From assembly GCF_003202035.1 (NCBI RefSeq), contig NZ_QJKC01000024.1:1-43615 (forward strand): DNA of 43,615 nucleotides, given 5' to 3'. Below, piece by piece: positions 34,505 through 43,248 of this stretch. The stretch comes from Aquitalea magnusonii. Its GTDB lineage: Bacteria > Pseudomonadota > Gammaproteobacteria > Burkholderiales > Chromobacteriaceae. The notes under the pieces were generated by a model. That model was not told the origin of the DNA, made no database searches, and was given only the letters and a program-made list of their open reading frames with translations. Made by a program: the position numbers and the translations under genes. The first letter of the stretch is position 1; the number at the start of each line of letters is the position of its first letter.

Positions 34505-34846
34505 TCATTGGTATCTCTGTCCCTTGGTCTGGCATGCCACTATCTCCTGATTCTTTACCCGGCGTGCTATTTTTGCTGCAAAAGCCTGACCATAAAGTGT
34601 TTTGCCGCATGCCAGCGCTGACAACAAGCGATGTAAGGACGGGGAGTGTCGTGAGCTAATCGATATTTCCATGTCGAGACAGCTTGTAATGCCTTGAAAA
34701 GCTTGCCATACCTTTTTGCTAAGCTCAGGATTGTCGATTACAATGCCATAGTGATTACTTTGAAGAAGTTGCCAGGCAGGGCCCTCCCCTGAAGCTGTAG
34801 GCCAGTTCCACTGGTTCTGACTTGCTGGCCATTCATTGCATAATGT
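34505..34846 (-). pseudogene. possible remnant of a coding region, 5' end missing
   Basis: The minus strand is open for 114 codons between an in-frame stop at 34847-34849 and the stop at 34505-34507, in a region of near-even base composition where stops are expected more often. The conceptual product has a natural-looking composition, for example WQLLQSNHYGIVIDNPELSKK and LHRLLSALACGKTLYGQAFA. No start codon occurs at its beginning; the first ATG is at 34672. I cannot name a family. It could be a truncated gene left by exchange at the edge of the polysaccharide locus, or chance. Apart from this and the promoter of the next gene, the 383-base spacer 34486-34868 holds nothing I can identify. 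Confidence 0.3.
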
Positions 34847-34868: not shown

Positions 34869-35216
34869 ATGAAGAAAATTTTGCTTCTGGCGCTGCTCGC
34901 TACTTTCGGTACTGCTCAAACTGCTTTTGCTGTTGGTGAAGAAGCCGCTGCAGTCGCTCCGGGTTCTGCTGGTGGTGCTGCCGCCGGGTCTACTGGCGCC
35001 GCCGCAGGTGCAGGTGCTGGTACAGCAGGTGCTGCAGCCGGTGCTGGTGCTGCTACGGCAGGTGCGGCAGCAGGTGCAGTCGGTGCTGCTGCAGCGACCA
35101 CCGCAACGATTGGTCTGGGTACGATTGCTGCAATCGGTGCCTCTGTTGCAGGTATCGTTGCCGCTGCTTCGAGCAACAGCAACTCCACCAGCACCCACTC
35201 CACAGCATCTCACTGA
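34869..35216 (+). CDS. small secreted Ala/Gly-rich protein, YjbE/GfcA-like
   Basis: A 115-residue exported protein: signal peptide MKKILLLALLATFGTAQTAFA, then a body of repeated AAAGAG/AGTAG-type blocks, a hydrophobic stretch (TIGLGTIAAIGASVAGIVAAAS) and a polar Ser/Thr/His tail (NSNSTSTHSTASH). This architecture matches YjbE and GfcA (YmcD), the first proteins of the yjbEFGH and group 4 capsule operons of E. coli. Simple-sequence proteins are hard to align, so the assignment rests on layout and on the YjbH gene that follows. GGAG lies 6 bases before the ATG. A terminator-like hairpin directly after it suggests that it is made in excess over the downstream genes. Role unknown, in the periplasm or secreted with the polymer. 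Confidence 0.75.
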   Translation: MKKILLLALLATFGTAQTAFAVGEEAAAVAPGSAGGAAAGSTGAAAGAGAGTAGAAAGAGAATAGAAAGAVGAAAATTATIGLGTIAAIGASVAGIVAAASSNSNSTSTHSTASH

Positions 35217-35290: not shown

Positions 35291-38128
35291 ATGCGCATCA
35301 TTTTTGCCAGAAAATTATTTGTAACCGCCATGGCCATGGGGTTGGTGGGGGGCGTACAGGCCGCACCCAATCTGGATGGGCAGGATGGTTACATAAAAAT
35401 GCCAAATGCATTAACGGGGACTGATGGGACTTGGAGCTGGGGTAATAGTTTTGACCGGCCATATAGTACAACCTGGACTTCAGTCAGTTTTCTGCCCGTG
35501 GTGCAGGCTGGTTTTCGCTATGTCGGTGTGATTGGTGTTCCCGGATTTACCGAAGAGCCTTATAAAAGTGAATATGGTCGCTACAAGGACAAGGTTTTTG
35601 ATGTAAAGATTCAATTGCTTCCCGAAAGCCGCTATCTGCCTGCCATCGCATTTGGCCGGCTGGACTTGTTTGGTACTAATTTGTGGCGAGCAGATTATAT
35701 TGCCATGACCAAGAATTTTGGTTCGCTGGAAGCCAGCCTGGGTTATGGCAGTGGCCTGATCGACAAGGCCTTTGGAGGGCTGCGGTGGACGCCTGAGCGC
35801 TTTCCAAGCTGGTCTTTGGTTGGCGAGTATGATGCGCATAATTACCAGAAAGATTTTAACAGCGCATCGACCTTTGCCTCGCAACGCAAAAAGGGCGTGA
35901 GTACCGGTATCGAATACCGCTGGGGCTGGCTATCCACTCAGGTGGCACACCAGAATGCCACCAATAGCATCAATTTCATGGTCAACATCCCGCTTAATGA
36001 GCGGGAATTTGTCCCCAAATTTCAAGAGCCGGGGTTTTACTCGCCTTCCGAATTGCCCACGCGACCCAGCGCTGCGCAATGGCAAGAGGATGATTCGTAT
36101 CAGATCAAGCTTGCCAAGGCACTGCAAAAACAAGATTACGCTCTGGTTAGCAGTAGCTACGCCAATGGCACATTGTCCCTTAATCTCACCAATACCCGTA
36201 TTTCCAATGTAGGGCGCAGCGTGGGGCGGGCAGTCAGAACTGCCTTGTACTTCATGCCATTGGAGACAAAAGCCATCAAGGTGACGCATACCGAAATGAG
36301 TATGCCGGTGGTGACATATGAATTCTTCAATTTGCCCAAATTGCAGGAATACCTGGCAGGAAAAATCAATCGTGAACAGTTCAATCAATATGTACTGGTC
36401 CGTTCCGCAGACTCCAGCGACCTGATTGTTCAGGATGACCAGACGGCTACGGCGATTGCTGCTGGCCTGCAGGAGGGGATTGATTTCAATGTGGTCTCGT
36501 CAGAAGATGGCGATATCGTACAGTTGCGTAGCCGGGATTCCCTGCTTAATCGTATAAAAATTGCGCCCAAGGTCAGTTTTTTCTTCAACGACCCAAGTGG
36601 TGCCTATTTGTATGATTTGAAAGCGGTTGCAAATTATGATCGCCGGCTGGGCTCGGGTTTGTATTTTAATTCGGAAGTCGGCGCTACGATCGCTACCAAC
36701 AATACCAAAAATATGAAGGCCTCCAATAGTTTGCTGCCACATGTGCGCAGCGATGTGGCCGAGTATATCAATGGTAGCCGGGTGAAAATTGACCAGGCAG
36801 TGGTCAATCAGTTTTTCAAGCCGGGGACGGATTGGTATGGAAGATTTTCTGCCGGTATCTATGAAGAAATGTTTGCCGGTAGCGGTGGCCAGTTATTATA
36901 TTCTCCGGCAGGCAAACGCTGGTCTGCTGATTTGAGTATTGATGCATTGCGCCAGCGAGATATCTATGGCGGCCTGGGTTTCCGCCACTACGATACATTG
37001 CAAACGCTTTTGTCAGTCCACTATCGCCTTCCCTATGACATGACTGCGACAGCAAGGGCTGGCCAGTTTCTGGCCAAGGACGAAGGGCTGCGTTTTGAAT
37101 TGAAACGACGCTTCCGTTCAGGTATTGAAATCGGCGCCTGGTATACCTATACCAATGCTCATGATATTACCTCGCCAGGCTCGCCAAATTCTCCCTATCA
37201 GGATAAAGGGGTGTTTTTCTCTATCCCTCTTGGTCCCATGCTTACAATGGATAACCGCTCGGTTGGCAATTTTGCCTTGTCACCCTGGAGCCGAGATGGT
37301 GGTCAGATGGTGGCCAGTCCGGGCGATTTGTACGGAATTGTCGAAAACAGCCAGCGTGATGCCTCACGTTTTGATGGCCTGGGTAATTTCTCGGAAAGAA
37401 ACGACGAAATCAATCACCCGGCAAATGCCAATCCGATTGAAACATTTCAGCCGTGGCCTGCGGTAAAATTGCGGCTCGATGATTCCGTCAACGAGTTTCC
37501 GGAATTGTCGCCCCTGGTACAGGGCAGTTTGTTGGCAACCGGGGCAATTGGCATTGCGGCCCTGTCGGATAGCCGTTGGGACAGCTTGATGAAACATGGC
37601 CAGCATAACCGCTTGCTCAAATACTGGGGGGATGGTGCCAGCGCAGCACCGGTCATCGGGGCCGGGCTTGCGGGTATGGCCATGGCTTTCGGCGATGAAC
37701 GTCTGCAGAATACCGGCTTTATAGCCTTGCAGGCCGCCGCGGTCTCTGTTGCCGGCAATATGGCGATCAAGCAGGTGGTCAACAGGGCCCGTCCGGGTGA
37801 TGGAAATGGTGCCTGGTCTACCCAGCCGGCAGGGGAGTCGCGTAGTTCCAGTTCGTTTGCATCCACCCATGCGGCAGCCAATTTCGCACTCGTGACCCCT
37901 TTTGCTTCCGAATATGATGCTCCCTGGCTATATGGTGTTGCAGCCGTAGCATCGTTGGGGCGTACTGCTAACCGGCAACACTGGTTATCCGATGTGGTCG
38001 CTGGCGGCCTGGGTGGTTTTGCAGTCGGAAAATGGCTGTGGAGTTCACAGCGGGATGCCAGCCGTTACCAGACCATGTTTGGTCTTGCTCCCAATTCGGC
38101 CAGCATCACGGTGCAGAAATCATATTGA
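35291..38128 (+). CDS. YjbH-type exopolysaccharide outer-membrane protein fused to a PAP2 phosphatase domain
   Basis: A 945-residue exported protein: signal peptide MRIIFARKLFVTAMAMGLVGGVQA, then a YjbH/GfcD-type region (about 25-710) rich in aromatic beta strands, beginning PNLDGQDGYIKMPNALTGTDGTW and containing SLEASLGYGSGLIDKAFGGLRW. Residues of about 750-930 form a PAP2 domain with all three motifs: K827-x6-R834-P835 (KQVVNRARP), S858-T-H860 (SFASTHA in place of the usual PSGH), and R891-x5-H897-x3-D901. Small hydrophobic helices surround them. YjbH proteins of E. coli are about 700 residues and lack PAP2. The PAP2 part may dephosphorylate a lipid-linked or phosphorylated glycan on the periplasmic side. 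AGG lies about 5 bases before the ATG. GC content is lower than in the housekeeping genes. Confidence 0.85.
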   Translation: MRIIFARKLFVTAMAMGLVGGVQAAPNLDGQDGYIKMPNALTGTDGTWSWGNSFDRPYSTTWTSVSFLPVVQAGFRYVGVIGVPGFTEEPYKSEYGRYKDKVFDVKIQLLPESRYLPAIAFGRLDLFGTNLWRADYIAMTKNFGSLEASLGYGSGLIDKAFGGLRWTPERFPSWSLVGEYDAHNYQKDFNSASTFASQRKKGVSTGIEYRWGWLSTQVAHQNATNSINFMVNIPLNEREFVPKFQEPGFYSPSELPTRPSAAQWQEDDSYQIKLAKALQKQDYALVSSSYANGTLSLNLTNTRISNVGRSVGRAVRTALYFMPLETKAIKVTHTEMSMPVVTYEFFNLPKLQEYLAGKINREQFNQYVLVRSADSSDLIVQDDQTATAIAAGLQEGIDFNVVSSEDGDIVQLRSRDSLLNRIKIAPKVSFFFNDPSGAYLYDLKAVANYDRRLGSGLYFNSEVGATIATNNTKNMKASNSLLPHVRSDVAEYINGSRVKIDQAVVNQFFKPGTDWYGRFSAGIYEEMFAGSGGQLLYSPAGKRWSADLSIDALRQRDIYGGLGFRHYDTLQTLLSVHYRLPYDMTATARAGQFLAKDEGLRFELKRRFRSGIEIGAWYTYTNAHDITSPGSPNSPYQDKGVFFSIPLGPMLTMDNRSVGNFALSPWSRDGGQMVASPGDLYGIVENSQRDASRFDGLGNFSERNDEINHPANANPIETFQPWPAVKLRLDDSVNEFPELSPLVQGSLLATGAIGIAALSDSRWDSLMKHGQHNRLLKYWGDGASAAPVIGAGLAGMAMAFGDERLQNTGFIALQAAAVSVAGNMAIKQVVNRARPGDGNGAWSTQPAGESRSSSSFASTHAAANFALVTPFASEYDAPWLYGVAAVASLGRTANRQHWLSDVVAGGLGGFAVGKWLWSSQRDASRYQTMFGLAPNSASITVQKSY

Positions 38129-38161: not shown

Positions 38162-38183
38162 GATTGAAGCAGGCTAATGGTTA

Positions 38184-38199
38184 GCCGACAGTTGTCGGC
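38184..38199 (+). other. second intercistronic hairpin upstream of the wza-like gene
   Basis: GCCGACA/TGTCGGC (38184-38190 with 38193-38199) is a near-continuous 16-base palindrome 31 bases before the chosen start at 38231. If translation began at the alternative ATG 38177, the hairpin would be inside the coding region. Confidence 0.45.
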
Positions 38200-38230
38200 C
38201 TCTGATATTTTGAAAACAGGATGTTCCGTA

Positions 38231-40144
38231 ATGATCAGAAAAGAATTTCGTAACCAGGGCGCAAGGGTCGTTATCAGCATGGCGATGCTCTTTCCTGGTT
38301 TGGTGCTGGCGGCCAATAGCGATGCCGCTGCGGCAGCGGCTTCGGCCAGCAATCCCTTCCTGATGCCAAGCTACCAGGCGGGTGCGGATACGGGACTGCC
38401 ATCCATCACCAATGTGGTCTCACCGGCAGCGGGCGGCGGGGCGGTTCAGGCGCCGGCTGCACAGCTGCAGCCGCTGGCCAGCTTTGTTACCAGCCATCAG
38501 GAGTCGGCCTTTGCCCAATATGTGGACGGGGTGACCGGCAGCAAGCTGGATGTGTTTGGCAGCAACCTGTTTCAGAGCGTGCCCACTACGTTTGCTCCTC
38601 TGAATGCCACCCAGGTCAATGGCGATTACGTGATTGGCGCGGGTGACGAACTGCAAATCCGTGGCTGGGGCATGGTCGATATCGATCTTACCGTTCCGGT
38701 AGACCGCTCCGGCAGCATCTATCTGCCGCGGGTCGGCAGCGTAAAGGTGGCCGGGGTGCGTTTCCGCGATCTGCAGGGATATCTGAAGAAATCAGTCAAC
38801 CGGGTTTTCACCAACTTTGATCTTACCGTCAGCATTGCCCAAACCCGTGCGGTACAGGTGTATATGGTGGGACATGTGGTGCGGGCCGGCACCTATACCC
38901 TCAGCGCCATGAGTACCCTGCTCAATGCGCTGTTTGCCTCTGGTGGCCCTTCCGGTACCGGGACCATGCGTAATATCCAGGTCAAGCGGGGCGGCGAAGT
39001 GGTCACCACCTTCGACCTGTATGACATGCTGGTCAAGGGGGACAAGAGCCATGATATTCCGCTGCAGGATGGTGATGTCATCTACATCCCCGAAGTCGGT
39101 TCACAAATTGCCATTACCGGCAATGTAAAACAGCCTGGCATTTACGAACTCAAAGGCAGCACCACGCTCGCCGATGTGGCCAGCTGGAGTGGCGGCTTTG
39201 ATTCCGCTGCGGAAAACCAGCAAATCATTATTGAAAAAAACGTCGATAACAAATACCAGCCCTTGGTCGACCTGCATGGCAGCAGCGAGCAGCTGGCCAA
39301 ACAACTGCCGCAGTATCCTGTGGCGCCCGGCAATATCCTGCGGGTATTCGCCCCGTCCGCCGTGGCGGTACAGGCGCAAAAGCAACGCGAATTTGTCACC
39401 GTGGCTGGCGAAGTCAAGCAAACCGGTGTGGTGCAGATCCAGAAAGGAGAAACCCTGCGCGAGCTGGTGTCGCGCCTGGGCGGGGTCAGCGACAACGGTT
39501 ATGTCTTTGCCACCAGGGTGACACGCGGCAGCATTGCTGCGGTACAGCAGCAAAAGCTGGACGAACTGGCCGACCGCTTTGAAAAAGATGCCACCACCAA
39601 TGCCCAGCAGCGTATGGCGGGGCTGACCGATGCCGGTTCGATTGCCAATATCCAGGCCGAACTGGCACGGCAGCAAGCATTGGCCAAGAAAATGCGCTCC
39701 ATCAGGGCAGAAGGGCGCATCGTGCTGGAGCTTGGCAATGGCAAGGCCGCAGTGAAGAACCTGCCGGACCTGCCGCTGCAGGATGGTGACCAGATCTACA
39801 TCCCGCGCCGGCCCGACACGGTTGATGTGCTGGGTTCGGTCAACCAGCAGTCCGCCTATATCTACCGCAGCAACCGTACAGCAGCCGACTACCTCAAGCT
39901 GGCTGGCGGGATTACCCGTACCGGAGATGAAGGTGCCATGTATCTGCTGCGTGCCGATGGCACTGTCGACGCCCAGGGTGGCTGGCTGGGTGGGGTAGCA
40001 GGTAGCAATGTCAATCCGGGGGATGCACTGGTGGTGCCGGAGAAGATCGACCGCAGCACCTGGATGGAAAACATCAAGGAATGGACCACCATCCTCTACC
40101 AGTTTGGCCTGGGTGCTGCCGCCCTCAAAGTATTGAAAAACTGA
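38231..40144 (+). CDS. Wza-like polysaccharide export protein with several SLBB domains
   Basis: Outer-membrane export channel component for capsule or exopolysaccharide. The 637 residues start with a signal peptide (MIRKEFRNQGARVVISMAMLFPGLVLA|AN) that has no lipobox Cys, unlike acylated Wza. A poly-export domain follows (YVIGAGDELQIRGWG ... YLPRVGSVKVAGVRF), then repeated SLBB units (AVQVYMVGHVVRAGTYTL, IAITGNVKQPGIYEL, FVTVAGEVKQTGVVQI, VDVLGSVNQQSAYIYR), and a C-terminal helix ILYQFGLGAAALKVLKN that may line the outer-membrane pore as in Wza. Wza is about 380 residues, so this one has extra SLBB units. An in-frame ATG at 38177 exists, but its extension precedes the signal peptide. Confidence 0.88.
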   Translation: MIRKEFRNQGARVVISMAMLFPGLVLAANSDAAAAAASASNPFLMPSYQAGADTGLPSITNVVSPAAGGGAVQAPAAQLQPLASFVTSHQESAFAQYVDGVTGSKLDVFGSNLFQSVPTTFAPLNATQVNGDYVIGAGDELQIRGWGMVDIDLTVPVDRSGSIYLPRVGSVKVAGVRFRDLQGYLKKSVNRVFTNFDLTVSIAQTRAVQVYMVGHVVRAGTYTLSAMSTLLNALFASGGPSGTGTMRNIQVKRGGEVVTTFDLYDMLVKGDKSHDIPLQDGDVIYIPEVGSQIAITGNVKQPGIYELKGSTTLADVASWSGGFDSAAENQQIIIEKNVDNKYQPLVDLHGSSEQLAKQLPQYPVAPGNILRVFAPSAVAVQAQKQREFVTVAGEVKQTGVVQIQKGETLRELVSRLGGVSDNGYVFATRVTRGSIAAVQQQKLDELADRFEKDATTNAQQRMAGLTDAGSIANIQAELARQQALAKKMRSIRAEGRIVLELGNGKAAVKNLPDLPLQDGDQIYIPRRPDTVDVLGSVNQQSAYIYRSNRTAADYLKLAGGITRTGDEGAMYLLRADGTVDAQGGWLGGVAGSNVNPGDALVVPEKIDRSTWMENIKEWTTILYQFGLGAAALKVLKN

Positions 40145-40230
40145 ACCCCGTAGCCTGTTGCCCTGATGGGCGACAGGCTAGCCAAGCAATGCATGGGCAC
40201 CGGCCCAAGTTTACGAGAAAGTCGCCAATA

Positions 40231-41439
40231 ATGACGGATACCACCCGTGAAGCAGCACAAGTCCCGGTTGAAACCGAAATGGATTTACTGGCTGCGCTGA
40301 CGGTCATTCTTAAACACAAAAAAATGATTGCCGCGTCCACCCTGGGCCTGAGCAGCGCCGCGCTGCTGGCCAGCTTGCTGATGACGCCAATCTATACCGC
40401 AACCAGCAGGATCATGCCGCCACAGCAGCAAAGCTCCACCCTTACTGCAATGCTCGGGCAATTGGGTTCACTGGCCGGGGCTGCCGGTTCAATCGCTGGC
40501 CTGAAGAATCCGAATGATTTGTATGTCGGCATGTTGCAAAGCCAGAGCGTGGCCGACAACCTGATTCGCCGTTTCAATCTGCAGCAGCGTTATGAAGCCA
40601 AGACCATGATTGACACGCGTGAAAAGCTCTCCCGCGTTGTTGACATCCTGTCAGGCAAGGATAGTTTGATCACGGTATCGGTTGATGATAAAGACCCCAA
40701 GTTTGCCGCTACCCTGGCCAATGCCTATGTGGAAGAACTGAGTAAGGTCACCCAGCGGTTGGCAGTAACCGATGCCGCCAAGCGCCGGCTGTTTTTCGAG
40801 CAACAGCTGAAAGAGACCAAGGACAAGCTGGCAGATGCCGAAGTCGCCCTGAAGAAAACCCAGGAACAAACCGGCATCCTGCAACCGGAAGGGCAGATCC
40901 AGGTCATCGTATCCAATATGGCGCAGTTGCGCGCCGGCATTGCCAGCAAGGAAGTCGAGCTGAGTGCCATGCGCAGTTTTGCCACCGCACAAAACCCCAA
41001 TTTGCTGAAAACCGAGCAGGAATTGCAAGCCATGCGCGCCCAGCTGGCCAAGCTGGAACAAAACCAGGCTGCCAAAGGCGCCGATATTTTTGTGCCCACC
41101 GGCAAGCTGCCGGAAAGTGGCATGGAGTATATACGCCGTCTGCGCGATGTGAAGTACTATGAAACCATGTTTGAACTGATGGCCAAGCAATTCGAATCCG
41201 CCAAACTGGATGAGTCCAAAGACTCCTCCAGTATTCAGGTATTGGATACTGCAACTGCGCCGGACAAAAAATCCAAGCCCAAGCGTGCTTTGATCTGCAT
41301 TGCCGGGTTTATTACAGGCTTGTTTTTTGGTCTACTTGGCGCTTTTGTTCGTGAGGCCTATATCATTAGCCGGAGTAGTGACCAGAACGGACGCTGGAAA
41401 GCACTTGCTGCCGCCTGGAAAAGTCAGAAGTCATCGTGA
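40231..41439 (+). CDS. Wzz-type polysaccharide chain-length determinant, no kinase domain
   Basis: Inner-membrane polysaccharide co-polymerase of 402 residues. The first transmembrane span lies at about 33-53 (MIAASTLGLSSAALLASLLMT), followed by PIYTATSRIMPP, the Wzz family proximal block. A long periplasmic coiled-coil region rich in Lys, Glu and Gln follows, then a Pro-rich motif before the second span (ICIAGFITGLFFGLLGAFV, about 368-386). The protein ends in a short basic tail. No Walker A or Tyr-rich tail is present, so it is not a Wzc-like tyrosine autokinase. The start at 40231 gives a normal N-terminus, with GAGAAAG about 10 bases upstream. The stop codon lies inside an octamer repeat. 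Confidence 0.88.
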   Translation: MTDTTREAAQVPVETEMDLLAALTVILKHKKMIAASTLGLSSAALLASLLMTPIYTATSRIMPPQQQSSTLTAMLGQLGSLAGAAGSIAGLKNPNDLYVGMLQSQSVADNLIRRFNLQQRYEAKTMIDTREKLSRVVDILSGKDSLITVSVDDKDPKFAATLANAYVEELSKVTQRLAVTDAAKRRLFFEQQLKETKDKLADAEVALKKTQEQTGILQPEGQIQVIVSNMAQLRAGIASKEVELSAMRSFATAQNPNLLKTEQELQAMRAQLAKLEQNQAAKGADIFVPTGKLPESGMEYIRRLRDVKYYETMFELMAKQFESAKLDESKDSSSIQVLDTATAPDKKSKPKRALICIAGFITGLFFGLLGAFVREAYIISRSSDQNGRWKALAAAWKSQKSS

Positions 41440-41464: not shown

Positions 41465-41815
41465 TCGGCCGTTTTTTACCATACAGGTGAATCAGGCATG
41501 TCTGTTGTCTATTTGGTGCAACTGTAACTGACAAGGTTACTACTTGAGATGGGGCAGGGCCAATAAAATGCCTGTCACCTTCACCATCAGCATGGTGCCC
41601 TATGCCTGCTGTCAATCAATCATATTTGACTCCTGCCGCATGCGGAGGGGACTGATTTTGATTATTTAAGATCGCAGTGATTGTTTGTCATTTCTATGGC
41701 ATGAGTTTTCCTGTTGTGTAATTAAAGTGGGAAATATCCGGCCGGCAACTGCAATACACATGACTGTGTATCCATCACACCATTGCATGGTGTATTCGAT
41801 GAAAATGGATTAGAC
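41465..41815 (+). other. intergenic leader region before rmlA
   Basis: This AT-rich spacer separates the export genes from the sugar genes. It holds TTGTCA at 41685-41690 and TAATTA at 41719-41724 at a spacing too wide for a promoter pair, and two adjacent inverted repeats near its 3' end, listed separately. No JUMPstart-type GGCGGTAG element was found. No gene is seen in it on either strand. Confidence 0.5.
41754..41793 (+). other. two adjacent hairpins in the rmlA leader
   Basis: ATACACA/TGTGTAT (41754-41760 with 41765-41771) and ACACCA/TGGTGT (41777-41782 with 41788-41793). The second ends 22 bases before the rmlA ATG. They may be operator sites or an RNA structure that controls translation. 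Confidence 0.45.
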
Positions 41816-42685
41816 ATGCAACGTAAAGGTATTATTCTGGCCGGTGGTAGCGGCACCCGCCTGTATCCGGCAACCCTGGCGGTCAGCAAACAACTGCTGC
41901 CCATCTACGACAAGCCAATGATCTATTACCCGCTCAGCACCCTGTTGCTGGCCGGTATTCGCGACATCCTGATCATTTCCACCCCGCAGGACACCCCGCG
42001 CTTCGAGCAACTGCTCGGCGATGGTAGCCAGTGGGGCATCAATCTGCAGTACGCAGTACAGCCCAGTCCCGATGGCTTGGCCCAGGCCTTCATCATTGGC
42101 GAAGATTTTCTGGCGGGGGCAGCTTCCGCCCTGGTCTTGGGTGACAACATCTTTCACGGGCATGATTTCCCCAAACTGCTGAAAGCGGCCAACGCCAAGC
42201 AGCAAGGCGCCAGCGTGTTTGCCTACCACGTACAGGACCCGGAGCGTTATGGCGTGGTGGAATTCGACGCCCAGGGCAAAGCCTTGTCCATCGAAGAAAA
42301 ACCTGCCACTCCGAAGTCCAACTATGCCGTCACCGGCCTGTACTTCTACGACAATCAGGTCGTCGACATTGCCAAGTCCATCCGCCCCTCACCACGCGGC
42401 GAGCTGGAAATCACCGACGTCAACAACCGCTACTTGCAGCAAGGCCAGCTGGATGTGCAAACCATGGGCCGTGGCTATGCCTGGCTGGATACGGGTACCC
42501 ACGAATCCATGCTGGAGGCCAGCCAGTTCATTGCCACTGTGGAAAACCGTCAGGGCCTGAAAGTCGCCTGTCTGGAAGAGATTGCCTACCTTCAGCAATG
42601 GATAGATGCCGCACAACTGGAAAAACTGGCGCAACCACTGAAAAAAAATGCATACGGAATGTATTTGTTGCAGCTGCTGAAATAA
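41816..42685 (+). CDS. rmlA: glucose-1-phosphate thymidylyltransferase
   Basis: Makes dTDP-glucose from glucose 1-phosphate and dTTP, the first step to dTDP-rhamnose and other dTDP-sugars. The 289 residues match the family length. The N-terminal block [40 protein letters not shown] holds the nucleotide loop (G10-G11-S12-G13-T14-R15) and K25. [10 protein letters not shown] and [16 protein letters not shown] are family blocks. The start at 41816 is family-typical. rmlC follows 14 bases after the stop; rmlB and rmlD are not between them and may lie beyond the window or elsewhere. Confidence 0.95.
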
Positions 42686-42699
42686 AGACCACCTGACTC

Positions 42700-43248
42700 A
42701 TGAAAATCATTGATACCGCAATCCCGGATGTAAAGATTATCGAGCCTGCTGTGTTTGGCGATCAGCGTGGGTTCTTCTTTGAGAGCTTTAATCAGAAGCA
42801 CTTTGACAATGCCATTGGTCGGCCGGTCAATTTTGTTCAGGATAATCACAGCCGATCAAGCAAAGGCGTTCTGCGTGGCCTGCACTACCAGCTGCCACCG
42901 TTTGCCCAGGGCAAACTTGTGCGTTGTGTGGTGGGGAAAGTCTACGATGTCGCAGTCGATATCCGCCGTAGCTCGCCCACTTGCGGTCAATGGGTTGGCG
43001 TCGAGCTATCCGCCGACAACAAGCGCCAGTTGTGGATCCCGGAAGGCTTTGCCCATGGATTTGTCACCTTGTCGGATGCTGCCGAGTTTTTATACAAAAC
43101 AACCAACTATTGGGAAAAATCCGCAGAGCGGGCCATTGTCTGGAATGATCCTGTTTTGAATATAGAATGGCCTGAAATCGATATGCCTCAGCTCTCGGCA
43201 AAAGACCTGGAGGGCGCGTTTTTTGAAAGCGCTATCCTGTTCGATTAG
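42700..43248 (+). CDS. rmlC: dTDP-4-dehydrorhamnose 3,5-epimerase
   Basis: Converts dTDP-4-keto-6-deoxyglucose to dTDP-4-keto-rhamnose. The 182 residues form a cupin. The substrate site FVQDNHSRSSKGVLRGLHYQ holds the catalytic His (H62), QGKLVRCVVGKVYDVAVDIR holds K72, and WIPEGFAHGFVTLSD and FLYKTTNYW complete the family signature. It follows rmlA by 14 bases and probably shares its transcript. RmlC without RmlD could also supply other dTDP-deoxysugars, but rhamnose is the usual product. Confidence 0.95.
   Translation: MKIIDTAIPDVKIIEPAVFGDQRGFFFESFNQKHFDNAIGRPVNFVQDNHSRSSKGVLRGLHYQLPPFAQGKLVRCVVGKVYDVAVDIRRSSPTCGQWVGVELSADNKRQLWIPEGFAHGFVTLSDAAEFLYKTTNYWEKSAERAIVWNDPVLNIEWPEIDMPQLSAKDLEGAFFESAILFD

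Follow-up and report, generated by a model that had tools for sequence, protein, structure and literature searches.

A predicted YjbH-type outer-membrane double barrel fused to a PAP2 phosphatase domain at a polysaccharide locus of Aquitalea magnusonii

The window, i.e., the whole stretch of 43,615 nucleotides of A. magnusonii contig NZ_QJKC01000024.1 that was analysed, contains a single open frame at 35291–38128 that encodes 945 aa and is read as a YjbH-PAP2 fusion (ORF reading and Pfam); this gene and all neighbours described here lie on the + strand. It is preceded at 34869–35216 by a small secreted ORF rich in Ala/Gly/Ser/Thr, ending in NSTSTHSTASH, which by its sequence resembles E. coli YjbE/GfcA in place and composition; its listed start is a TTG at 34836, and the ATG at 34869 suits a signal peptide. 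Downstream follow a Wza-type OPX export protein with Poly_export and several SLBB domains (38177–40144, likely ATG at 38231 by eye), a polysaccharide co-polymerase (PCP) with Wzz and GNVR domains (40081–41439, likely ATG at 40231 by eye), and the dTDP-sugar genes rmlA and rmlC of the same polysaccharide cluster (41783–43248; rmlA named by NCBIfam, rmlC from its sequence alone), before the contig ends at 43615. A GfcA/YjbE-like ORF upstream with an OPX and a co-polymerase nearby is likewise the arrangement of the GfcD/YjbH systems (DUF940, PF06082; E. coli group 4 capsule, yjbEFGH), with which the fusion also has the double barrel, the middle domain and the plug in common. The NCBIfam profile search has left the fusion itself without a name, and neither GfcB nor GfcC has been named among nine neighbouring ORFs (NCBIfam) or three (Pfam), a weak test that covers the neighbours only.

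A preliminary description of this DNA had proposed an export signal, a long YjbH/GfcD-like region and a C-terminal PAP2 domain, and all three have been recovered. The N-terminus MRIIFARKLFVTAMAMGLVGGVQA is Sec-signal-like and lacks a lipobox Cys (both by eye), with the signal peptide spanning residues 1 to ∼24 (35291–35362, cleavage near VQA/A, by eye) and a low-confidence helix at residues 2–15 in the AlphaFold2 model. Pfam YjbH (PF06082) matches residues 30–685 with 456.6 bits against a cut-off of 24 (E 2.5e-136) and is covered nearly whole (profile positions 6–657 of 658), while PAP2 (PF01569) matches residues 811–922 with 56.4 bits against a cut-off of 27.2 (E 3.5e-15), or 60.1 bits when the domain is scored alone. 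DSSP of the AlphaFold2 model has resolved barrel 1 with 12 strands (residues 47–234; 35429–35992), a middle, periplasmic domain (residues ∼261–415; 36071–36535), barrel 2 with 13 strands (residues 421–663; 36551–37279), and a helix at residues 680–696 that belongs to the C-terminal plug (..RDGGQMVASPGDLY..) and the flexible linker behind it (residues 664–740; 37280–37510). The PAP2 helical domain follows at residues 741–925 (37511–38065; Pfam, AlphaFold2 and Foldseek), with its Pfam core at 37721–38056 and the catalytic residues within 37769–37993, and the chain closes with a low-confidence β-hairpin in the AlphaFold2 models (residues 928–941; 38072–38113). The mean pLDDT is 72.3 for the whole-protein model and 82.8 for the PAP2 domain modelled alone.

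The fusion is thus a predicted outer-membrane double barrel of the GfcD/YjbH type. In the GfcD study (PMC11494523), GfcD-N has 12 strands, the second barrel, GfcD-C, has been modelled with 13, the C-terminal end folds into the channel and plugs it, and simulations place an exit gate for a lipid anchor in GfcD-C, which is the barrel type that bears PAP2 here. The lateral gate of GfcD is a prediction from models and simulations. The plug residues do not vary in 16 fused and unfused sequences (alignment A1), and unfused YjbH proteins stop 20–44 residues past the plug motif, as does E. coli YjbH (698 aa) soon after it, whereas the A. magnusonii chain continues into PAP2; the phosphatase-type domain starts where unfused proteins stop, behind the plug of the barrel. 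A Foldseek search with the whole model has returned mostly outer-membrane barrels, at TM below 0.2 (query length) among the 50 matches listed, which makes it of little help, and phmmer with the whole protein against the PDB (E up to 1) has given eight matches (E 0.21–0.98), none of them a PAP2 enzyme.

PAP2 enzymes are marked by three motifs, C1 (K-x6-R-P), C2 (P-S-G-H) and C3 (S-R-x5-H-x3-D). All seven catalytic residues named in the preliminary description, K827, R834, S858, H860, R891, H897 and D901, stand where it had placed them; they are unvaried across the 25 distinct full-length fusions of our first set (that of A. magnusonii counted), and Pfam has recovered PAP2 in each of 25 fusion C-terminal parts scanned. 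Among 50 distinct fused PAP2 domains, 35 of A. magnusonii's kind and 15 of a longer kind described below, six of these residues are kept without exception (K827, R834, S858, R891, H897, D901) and H860 in 48, the remaining two having Leu, while sequence identity to the A. magnusonii domain drops to 29% among 25 aligned domains (A3). C1 is present as K827...R834-P835 and kept in 50/50; C3 reads G890-R891-x5-H897-x3-D901, with Gly for the first Ser in A. magnusonii and with R, H and D in all 50. C2 deviates from P-S-G-H, being A-S-T-H in A. magnusonii with the functional Ser and His retained; over the 50 domains Pro occurs in 40, Ser in 50 and His in 48, and Gly in 9/15 of the longer kind vs. at most 1/35 of A. 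magnusonii's kind, in which the rule is [P/T/A]-S-x-H and not PSGH.

The same catalytic set is found in the membrane PAP2 lipid phosphatases PgpB, LpxE, LpxT, YbjG and BcrC. Regarding hydropathy, however, the A. magnusonii domain has no 19-residue window with a Kyte-Doolittle mean of at least 1.6, as is the case for 46/50 fused domains (both kinds pooled) and for 10 of 12 stand-alone relatives, whereas by this measure four strongly hydrophobic windows are present in each of E. coli PgpB and LpxT; the transmembrane helices by which PgpB/LpxE-type lipid-phosphate phosphatases are recognised have not been found in the A. magnusonii domain. According to PMC12826051, the substrate of YbjG, LpxT, PgpB and BcrC is Und-PP, and their place of action is the outer leaflet of the inner membrane. 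Since the fused PAP2 part appears soluble-like, such a housekeeping enzyme is a poor model for it, and the idea that an inner-membrane Und-PP phosphatase has been carried along is disfavoured by the hydropathy as well as by the A. magnusonii genome, which has two BacA genes and one further PAP2 gene.

A profile search of the PDB with the PAP2 domain has given 11 matches, nine of which are acid phosphatases (E 0.0085–0.16, aligned over the motif region only), the best being 9htz (E 3.5e-6), named only PAP2 family protein. The class A acid phosphatases (PhoN, PhoC; PDB 1d2t, 2a96, 9qcj) have K-x6-RP, S-x-H and R-x5-H-x3-D as well as low hydropathy in common with the fused domain, which differs in sitting on an outer-membrane barrel and in a C2 that is not PSGH. 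The structure prediction suggested in the preliminary description supports a PAP2 fold, albeit weakly: when the PAP2 model is searched with Foldseek, the top twelve matches are all PAP2-type enzymes, among them glucose-6-phosphatase, acid phosphatases, E. coli PgpB, and LpxE and B. subtilis PgpB, the last two ranking high, at a best E of 0.02 and TM of ∼0.4–0.5, no match reaching E 0.001. The soluble-type composition, together with the acid-phosphatase matches, is what one would expect of a domain carried away from the inner membrane as part of an outer-membrane protein.

Genome samples of 61, 369, 399 and 299 genomes have been searched, and the fusion has been found in 32/399 genomes of the order, spread over 12 families, two of the 32 (G593, G636) being recognised only on reading the DNA. 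An artefact of sequencing or assembly that brought two genes together, which the preliminary description had named as a possible refutation, is ruled out by the 25 distinct full-length fusions and the order survey, i.e., by many independent genomes, and so is a quirk of a single strain. None of nine other genomes of the same genus has given a match, one of the nine being just 61% complete, and none of the 194 plasmid records matched did so over more than 80% of the query. The longer form, of 1211–1486 aa, runs from a GfcC-like domain through YjbH to PAP2, mostly with an additional copy of the YjbH middle domain between the last two; this copy lies directly ahead of PAP2 in six of the eight longer-kind proteins tested. 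A small ORF like that of A. magnusonii lies within 400 bp upstream in 23/31 distinct fusions of its kind and 0/8 of the longer kind, compared with 4/21 unfused YjbH genes and 1/471 other genes of the same loci.

Of 33 distinct fusions for which 1 kb or more of downstream sequence could be inspected, 19 have OPX as their immediate neighbour in the same orientation (BLAST). All 19 belong to Chromobacteriaceae, and 17 of them then have PCP, as at the A. magnusonii locus, the other two loci being short. Outside this family no adjacent co-directional OPX has been seen for 14 distinct fusions, several with only ∼1.5 kb of flank, so that a constant place in wza/wzz loci, a point raised in the preliminary description, holds only in part. 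For the longer kind, a co-directional OPX within 400 bp occurs in 0/11, a count that includes proteins cut by contig ends and leaves out L121 by an E-value rule; OPX stands at 437 bp in L130 and at ∼460 bp in L121, near that limit. As OPX and PCP have been sought by BLAST with the A. magnusonii copies, dissimilar OPX types are missed in these counts. Unfused YjbH genes adjoin OPX as well (10/27), and phosphatase activity is therefore not needed by the export machine in general.

The presence of channel and phosphatase in one protein points to the loss of a phosphate, from the chain or from its lipid anchor, at the exit gate, and we infer, in line with the preliminary description, that a lipid carrier, lipid A or a glycan may be dephosphorylated at the export site. 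That the fusion is a GfcD/YjbH-type exporter with its own tethered phosphatase acting during export is a reading to which we give roughly even confidence, and most likely its putative target is the phosphate of a lipid-linked end or of the glycan. The polysaccharide passed on by, or alongside, the neighbouring OPX/PCP machinery would enter barrel 2 with an end still carrying a phosphate or a phosphate-linked lipid, and PAP2, held on its flexible linker at the lateral gate, most likely on the periplasmic side, would cleave a phosphomonoester or terminal pyrophosphate there. PAP2 chemistry runs through a phosphohistidine, for which H897 would serve, with H860 as proton donor and K827, R834 and R891 holding the phosphate. 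Two outcomes would be conceivable: a trimmed anchor whose tails can pass the lateral gate, or, for a chain already released, a cleared end that lets it exit free. A soluble-type PAP2 need not have a lipid substrate, which counts against a lipid model. More tentatively, PAP2 might supply the enzyme that is missing from the final step of export, processing the phosphate of the lipid-linked end at a GfcD-type lateral gate and thereby deciding between free and anchored chains, a proposal that we regard as possible and rather doubtful.

Several other functions have to be weighed against this. The PAP2 superfamily holds both hydrolases and phosphotransferases, and some acid phosphatases transphosphorylate. 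With the catalytic set of this superfamily, and with LpxT annotated as a lipid A-core phosphotransferase, the domain might, instead of hydrolysing, take phosphate from a donor, either a lipid or a small molecule, and pass it to polysaccharide or lipid A; we consider this quite unlikely, as LpxT has four strongly hydrophobic segments that the fused PAP2 lacks, and a donor or acceptor site is not readable from sequence. The non-canonical A-S-T-H and the two domains with Leu at H860 would suit a domain that has lost catalysis and now works in the export pore as lid, plug or docking element, and a structural role within the fusion is conceivable; the retention of six catalytic residues in all 50 domains, while identity falls so far, makes this very improbable.

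A broad periplasmic acid phosphatase engaged in phosphate scavenging or clean-up, with the barrel as a mere anchor and no role in export, would agree with the nine acid phosphatases among the 11 PDB profile matches, even though the best, 9htz, has only its family name. The partner is nevertheless always YjbH (32 genomes of 12 families), a second architecture adds a GfcC-like domain and in many cases repeats the YjbH middle domain, and OPX adjoins the fusion in Chromobacteriaceae, and thus we judge this reading unlikely. The membrane side of PAP2 is not trivial either, given the 13 strands predicted for the second barrel: with an odd number of strands the chain would finish on the outer face, save where the plug leads it back down, and PAP2 could then be surface-exposed and, working from there, trim phosphates on the polymer as it emerges or in the outer leaflet. 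The AlphaFold2 model and the published GfcD model (PMC11494523) agree on this number. A plug folded into the channel as in GfcD (PMC11494523) and kept in the fusions would, however, bring the chain back inwards, and the middle-domain copy, periplasmic in GfcD, stands between barrel and PAP2 in most of the longer-kind proteins tested (six of eight), which renders a surface-acting PAP2 rather unlikely.

Taking the tethered phosphatase as the preferred reading, a conserved enzyme domain on a barrel with a proposed lipid exit gate would provide an independent genomic clue that the cargo is phosphorylated or carries a lipid linked through phosphate, and the question of the cargo phosphate becomes addressable by one catalytic point mutant. 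If PAP2 were indeed the missing enzyme of the last step, GfcC-YjbH-PAP2 would unite the whole of outer-membrane export and processing in a single polypeptide. Both families are known already, and their joining is a variant for which no paper has been found in the literature searched. The composite EpsX-EpsY translocons and OPX classes 1–3 likewise place an OPX beside an outer-membrane barrel, although EpsX is a single 18-stranded barrel, unlike the double-barrel YjbH (PMC9601211 and PMC9603273); the word phosphatase is absent from the main text of PMC9601211, and the two mentions of it listed from PMC9603273 concern tyrosine phosphatases. In the YfiM-type Lipocone proteins, a lipid-headgroup enzyme has similarly been predicted to work next to an OMP barrel, either fused to it or encoded in one operon, but Lipocone is a different enzyme superfamily, and PAP2 occurs only as an operon neighbour among the 12 of 44 places listed (PMC12419801).

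In the longer loci examined (L032, L033, L035, L065–L072, L077, L078, L080), a profile search has found no PAP2 gene beside an unfused YjbH. A stand-alone PAP2 with a signal-like N-terminus adjoins OPX-PCP, with YjbH not in view, in two relatives (L073, L074), an observation in favour of a PAP2 role at export; this arrangement is known from one family only, in 2/3 matched genomes other than A. magnusonii, and the third (G327) has no OPX by BLAST within the 9.9 kb examined. One further genome (G599) has PAP2 only; a contig start lies close by, and the gene may be truncated. The bootstrap of the PAP2 tree is unsettled and its deeper forks are open, so that the tree does not decide between one and several joinings of YjbH and PAP2. 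A 345-aa PAP2 protein (L112/L139) clusters among the longer-kind fusions in this tree and reads as a probable fission product and not as an ancestor.

In the window, the frame at 35291-38128 (+) encodes a single 945-aa chain whose N-terminus is signal-like and in which Pfam has placed a YjbH match at residues 30-685 (E 2.5e-136) and a PAP2 match at residues 811-922 (E 3.5e-15), both above the curated cut-off. The proposed fusion of YjbH to PAP2 has thus been borne out, and the preliminary description had numbered the seven catalytic residues correctly; the canonical C2 motif has not been recovered, as it reads A-S-T-H here and is looser than canonical. An NCBIfam scan has assigned no name to the protein. 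Both families are known, and what appears to be new is their union together with the three-part GfcC-YjbH-PAP2 form. The fusion has not been found described in the literature on YjbH/GfcD/DUF940, GfcC, PAP2 and polysaccharide export, with most subscription papers and all preprints outside the scope of the search, nor in the available parts of PMC9603273, PMC8592465, PMC9601211, PMC12419801, PMC12220298, PMC12826051 and PMC11494523. A literature match for YjbH with PAP2 concerns Staphylococcus epidermidis, and one for PAP2, polysaccharide export and barrel concerns pili. The YjbH-PAP2 architecture is probably listed in protein databases.

Among 61 genomes, comprising the window's and those around it, 20 have matched, 16 of these along most of the chain. 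Genome contigs have yielded 15 loci, and the frames in them include 27 full-length fusions, one being the window's, carried by Chromobacteriaceae, Chitinimonas and MAGs labelled Betaproteobacteria, Burkholderiales and Rhodocyclaceae. A sequencing join of two genes in the window is ruled out by the 25 distinct full-length fusions, the window's included. The window's own genus is represented in the 61-genome search by nine further genomes, and none of them has matched the fusion; this, together with the lower G+C of the fusion gene (51.6% vs 62.5% in window 1-34485), suggests that the polysaccharide cluster is accessory. Across the order, 43 of 399 genomes have matched at E 1e-20; among the matches listed, YjbH and PAP2 share a single frame in 32 genomes of 12 families, divided equally between the window's kind (16, its own and one partial fusion included) and a longer kind (16, of which genomes G593 and G636 have been counted as fusions only once their DNA was read). 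The remaining matches at this threshold are YjbH alone in nine genomes, PAP2 alone in one (G599), and the two on separate contigs in genome G657. In the class sample (41 of 369 genomes at E 0.001) only the window's is a fusion among the matches listed, and in the phylum sample (35 of 299 at E 1e-8) the window's is joined by one more of the same order. The fusion thus looks confined to the order within these samples.

In the longer kind, frames of 1211-1486 aa carry PF06251 (GfcC C-terminal), then a strong YjbH match, then PAP2. The PF06251 match is weak but repeated, found in all five longer-kind proteins scanned (four above cut-off); a sixth scanned alongside, from locus L134, is of the window's kind. 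Six of eight longer-kind proteins tested have a second YjbH middle domain between YjbH and PAP2. This copy has matched the middle domains of the window's protein, four fused relatives and one unfused relative with 31-53% identity and E down to 3e-32, and at E 1e-3 it has matched the YjbH part of none of the eight longer proteins themselves. Three-domain GfcC-like/YjbH/PAP2 chains occur at loci L120, L121, L122, L127 and L130, the first two lacking the second middle domain. A tree built from 63 PAP2 domains, PgpB among them, places 13 of 15 longer-kind domains in one group (support 95/86) that also takes in three domains of the window's kind and a single stand-alone one; the other stand-alone families sit on longer branches, the bootstrap had yet to converge and the deeper forks stay open. 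On the simplest reading, the fused PAP2 domains would share ancestry and have been reshuffled later. A 345-aa PAP2 protein of G657 (loci L112/L139), nested among longer-kind fusions in the tree, has probably split off; on another contig of this genome a YjbH match carries one in-frame TAG. YjbH frames without PAP2 that extend N-terminally beyond YjbH have been seen at 1013 aa (L017/L078, genome G039) and 1134 aa (L133, genome G741).

Residues K827, R834, S858, R891, H897 and D901 are invariant in 50/50 distinct fused domains, and H860 is Leu in two of the 50, both of one family; these C2 histidine replacements lie at loci L095 and L106 (genomes G551 and G513). All seven residues are retained in 7/12 stand-alone domains. 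Judged from its residues, the window's fused domain is taken to be active. It is also predicted to be of a soluble type: 46 of 50 fused domains (window's included) and 10 of 12 stand-alone relatives lack any 19-residue window of at least 1.6 (Kyte-Doolittle), whereas E. coli PgpB and LpxT have four such segments each. A chain that crosses the inner membrane into the outer membrane could hardly bear several strongly hydrophobic helices. A profile of 25 fused domains has matched 11 PDB sequences at E up to 1, with a PAP2 family protein as the best match (3.5e-6); nine of the others are acid phosphatases and one is a designed protein. Modelled alone, the PAP2 part has reached pLDDT 82.8, and Foldseek has ranked PAP2-type enzymes at all of places 1-12 (TM 0.4-0.5, E from 0.02 upward), with no match at E 0.001.

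The plug behind the second barrel has been retained, with R668, D669, G671, M673, P677, D679, L680 and Y681 invariant in all 16 aligned fused and unfused sequences, and 20-44 residues follow its motif in unfused proteins vs 256-267 in window's-kind fusions. PAP2 has thus been joined on behind the plug rather than replacing it. The AlphaFold2 model of the whole fusion (16 sequences, pLDDT 72.3, pTM 0.58) predicts a 12-strand and a 13-strand part on either side of a middle domain, then a helix at the plug, a linker of low confidence, the helices of PAP2 and, at the end, a small hairpin. This layout agrees with the one modelled for GfcD in PMC11494523, where the strand numbers are 12 and 13, the second barrel has a lateral gate and the C-terminal end lies as a plug inside the channel. 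Most likely, the PAP2 domain would be tethered at the opening of the lateral-gate barrel and remove phosphate from the departing polysaccharide's end, or from its lipid, during exit. In this picture the architecture, the conservation, the plug and the neighbours are observed, the barrels, the gate and the soluble-type domain are predictions, and the membrane side, the substrate and the step are inferred. One topological difficulty is real: after 13 strands the chain would end outside, unless the plug leads it back through the channel. The plug's place in the published model and the extra middle domain ahead of PAP2 in most longer-kind proteins both speak for the periplasmic side.

The window's fusion is preceded by a small ORF (34869-35216), secreted and rich in Ala/Gly/Ser/Thr with a Ser/Thr/His end, and followed by a Wza-type export gene (OPX), a co-polymerase, rmlA, a putative rmlC and the contig end. 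That such fusions always lie in wza/wzz loci is only partly borne out: of 35 distinct window's-kind fusions, 33 have at least 1 kb downstream, and in 19 of these the neighbouring gene in the same direction is OPX, as searched by BLAST with the copy from the window; all 19 are in Chromobacteriaceae, vs 0/14 elsewhere. Within these 14, L034 has OPX 6.8 kb away and L137 a co-polymerase only. L029, with both genes upstream on the opposite strand, has too short a downstream part and is left out of the count. OPX is also adjacent to 10/27 unfused YjbH genes. Pfam has assigned six of ten neighbour proteins from three relatives to sugar-nucleotide/polysaccharide genes (NeuB, 2-epimerase, aminotransferase and dehydratases among them), all in L083 and L087; two others are housekeeping-type (oxidoreductase, gyrase B), and Pfam has matched nothing in the remaining two. 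A stand-alone PAP2 query has found three of 369 genomes besides the window's. In two relatives (L073 and L074) the gene of such a protein, with signal-like N-terminus, lies beside OPX and co-polymerase and divergent from them, with no YjbH in view; in the third genome BLAST has found no OPX within the 9.9 kb examined. The small ORF lies upstream of 23/31 window's-kind vs 0/8 longer-kind fusions, 4/21 unfused YjbH genes and 1/471 other genes, a contrast somewhat flattered by criteria (size, composition, His near the end) set after seeing examples. Its product may be a cargo or matrix protein of the FapF-like first barrel, a candidate role by analogy with an idea raised for GfcD in PMC9603273. 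Further loci with this ORF upstream of the fusion include L021, L081 and L087.
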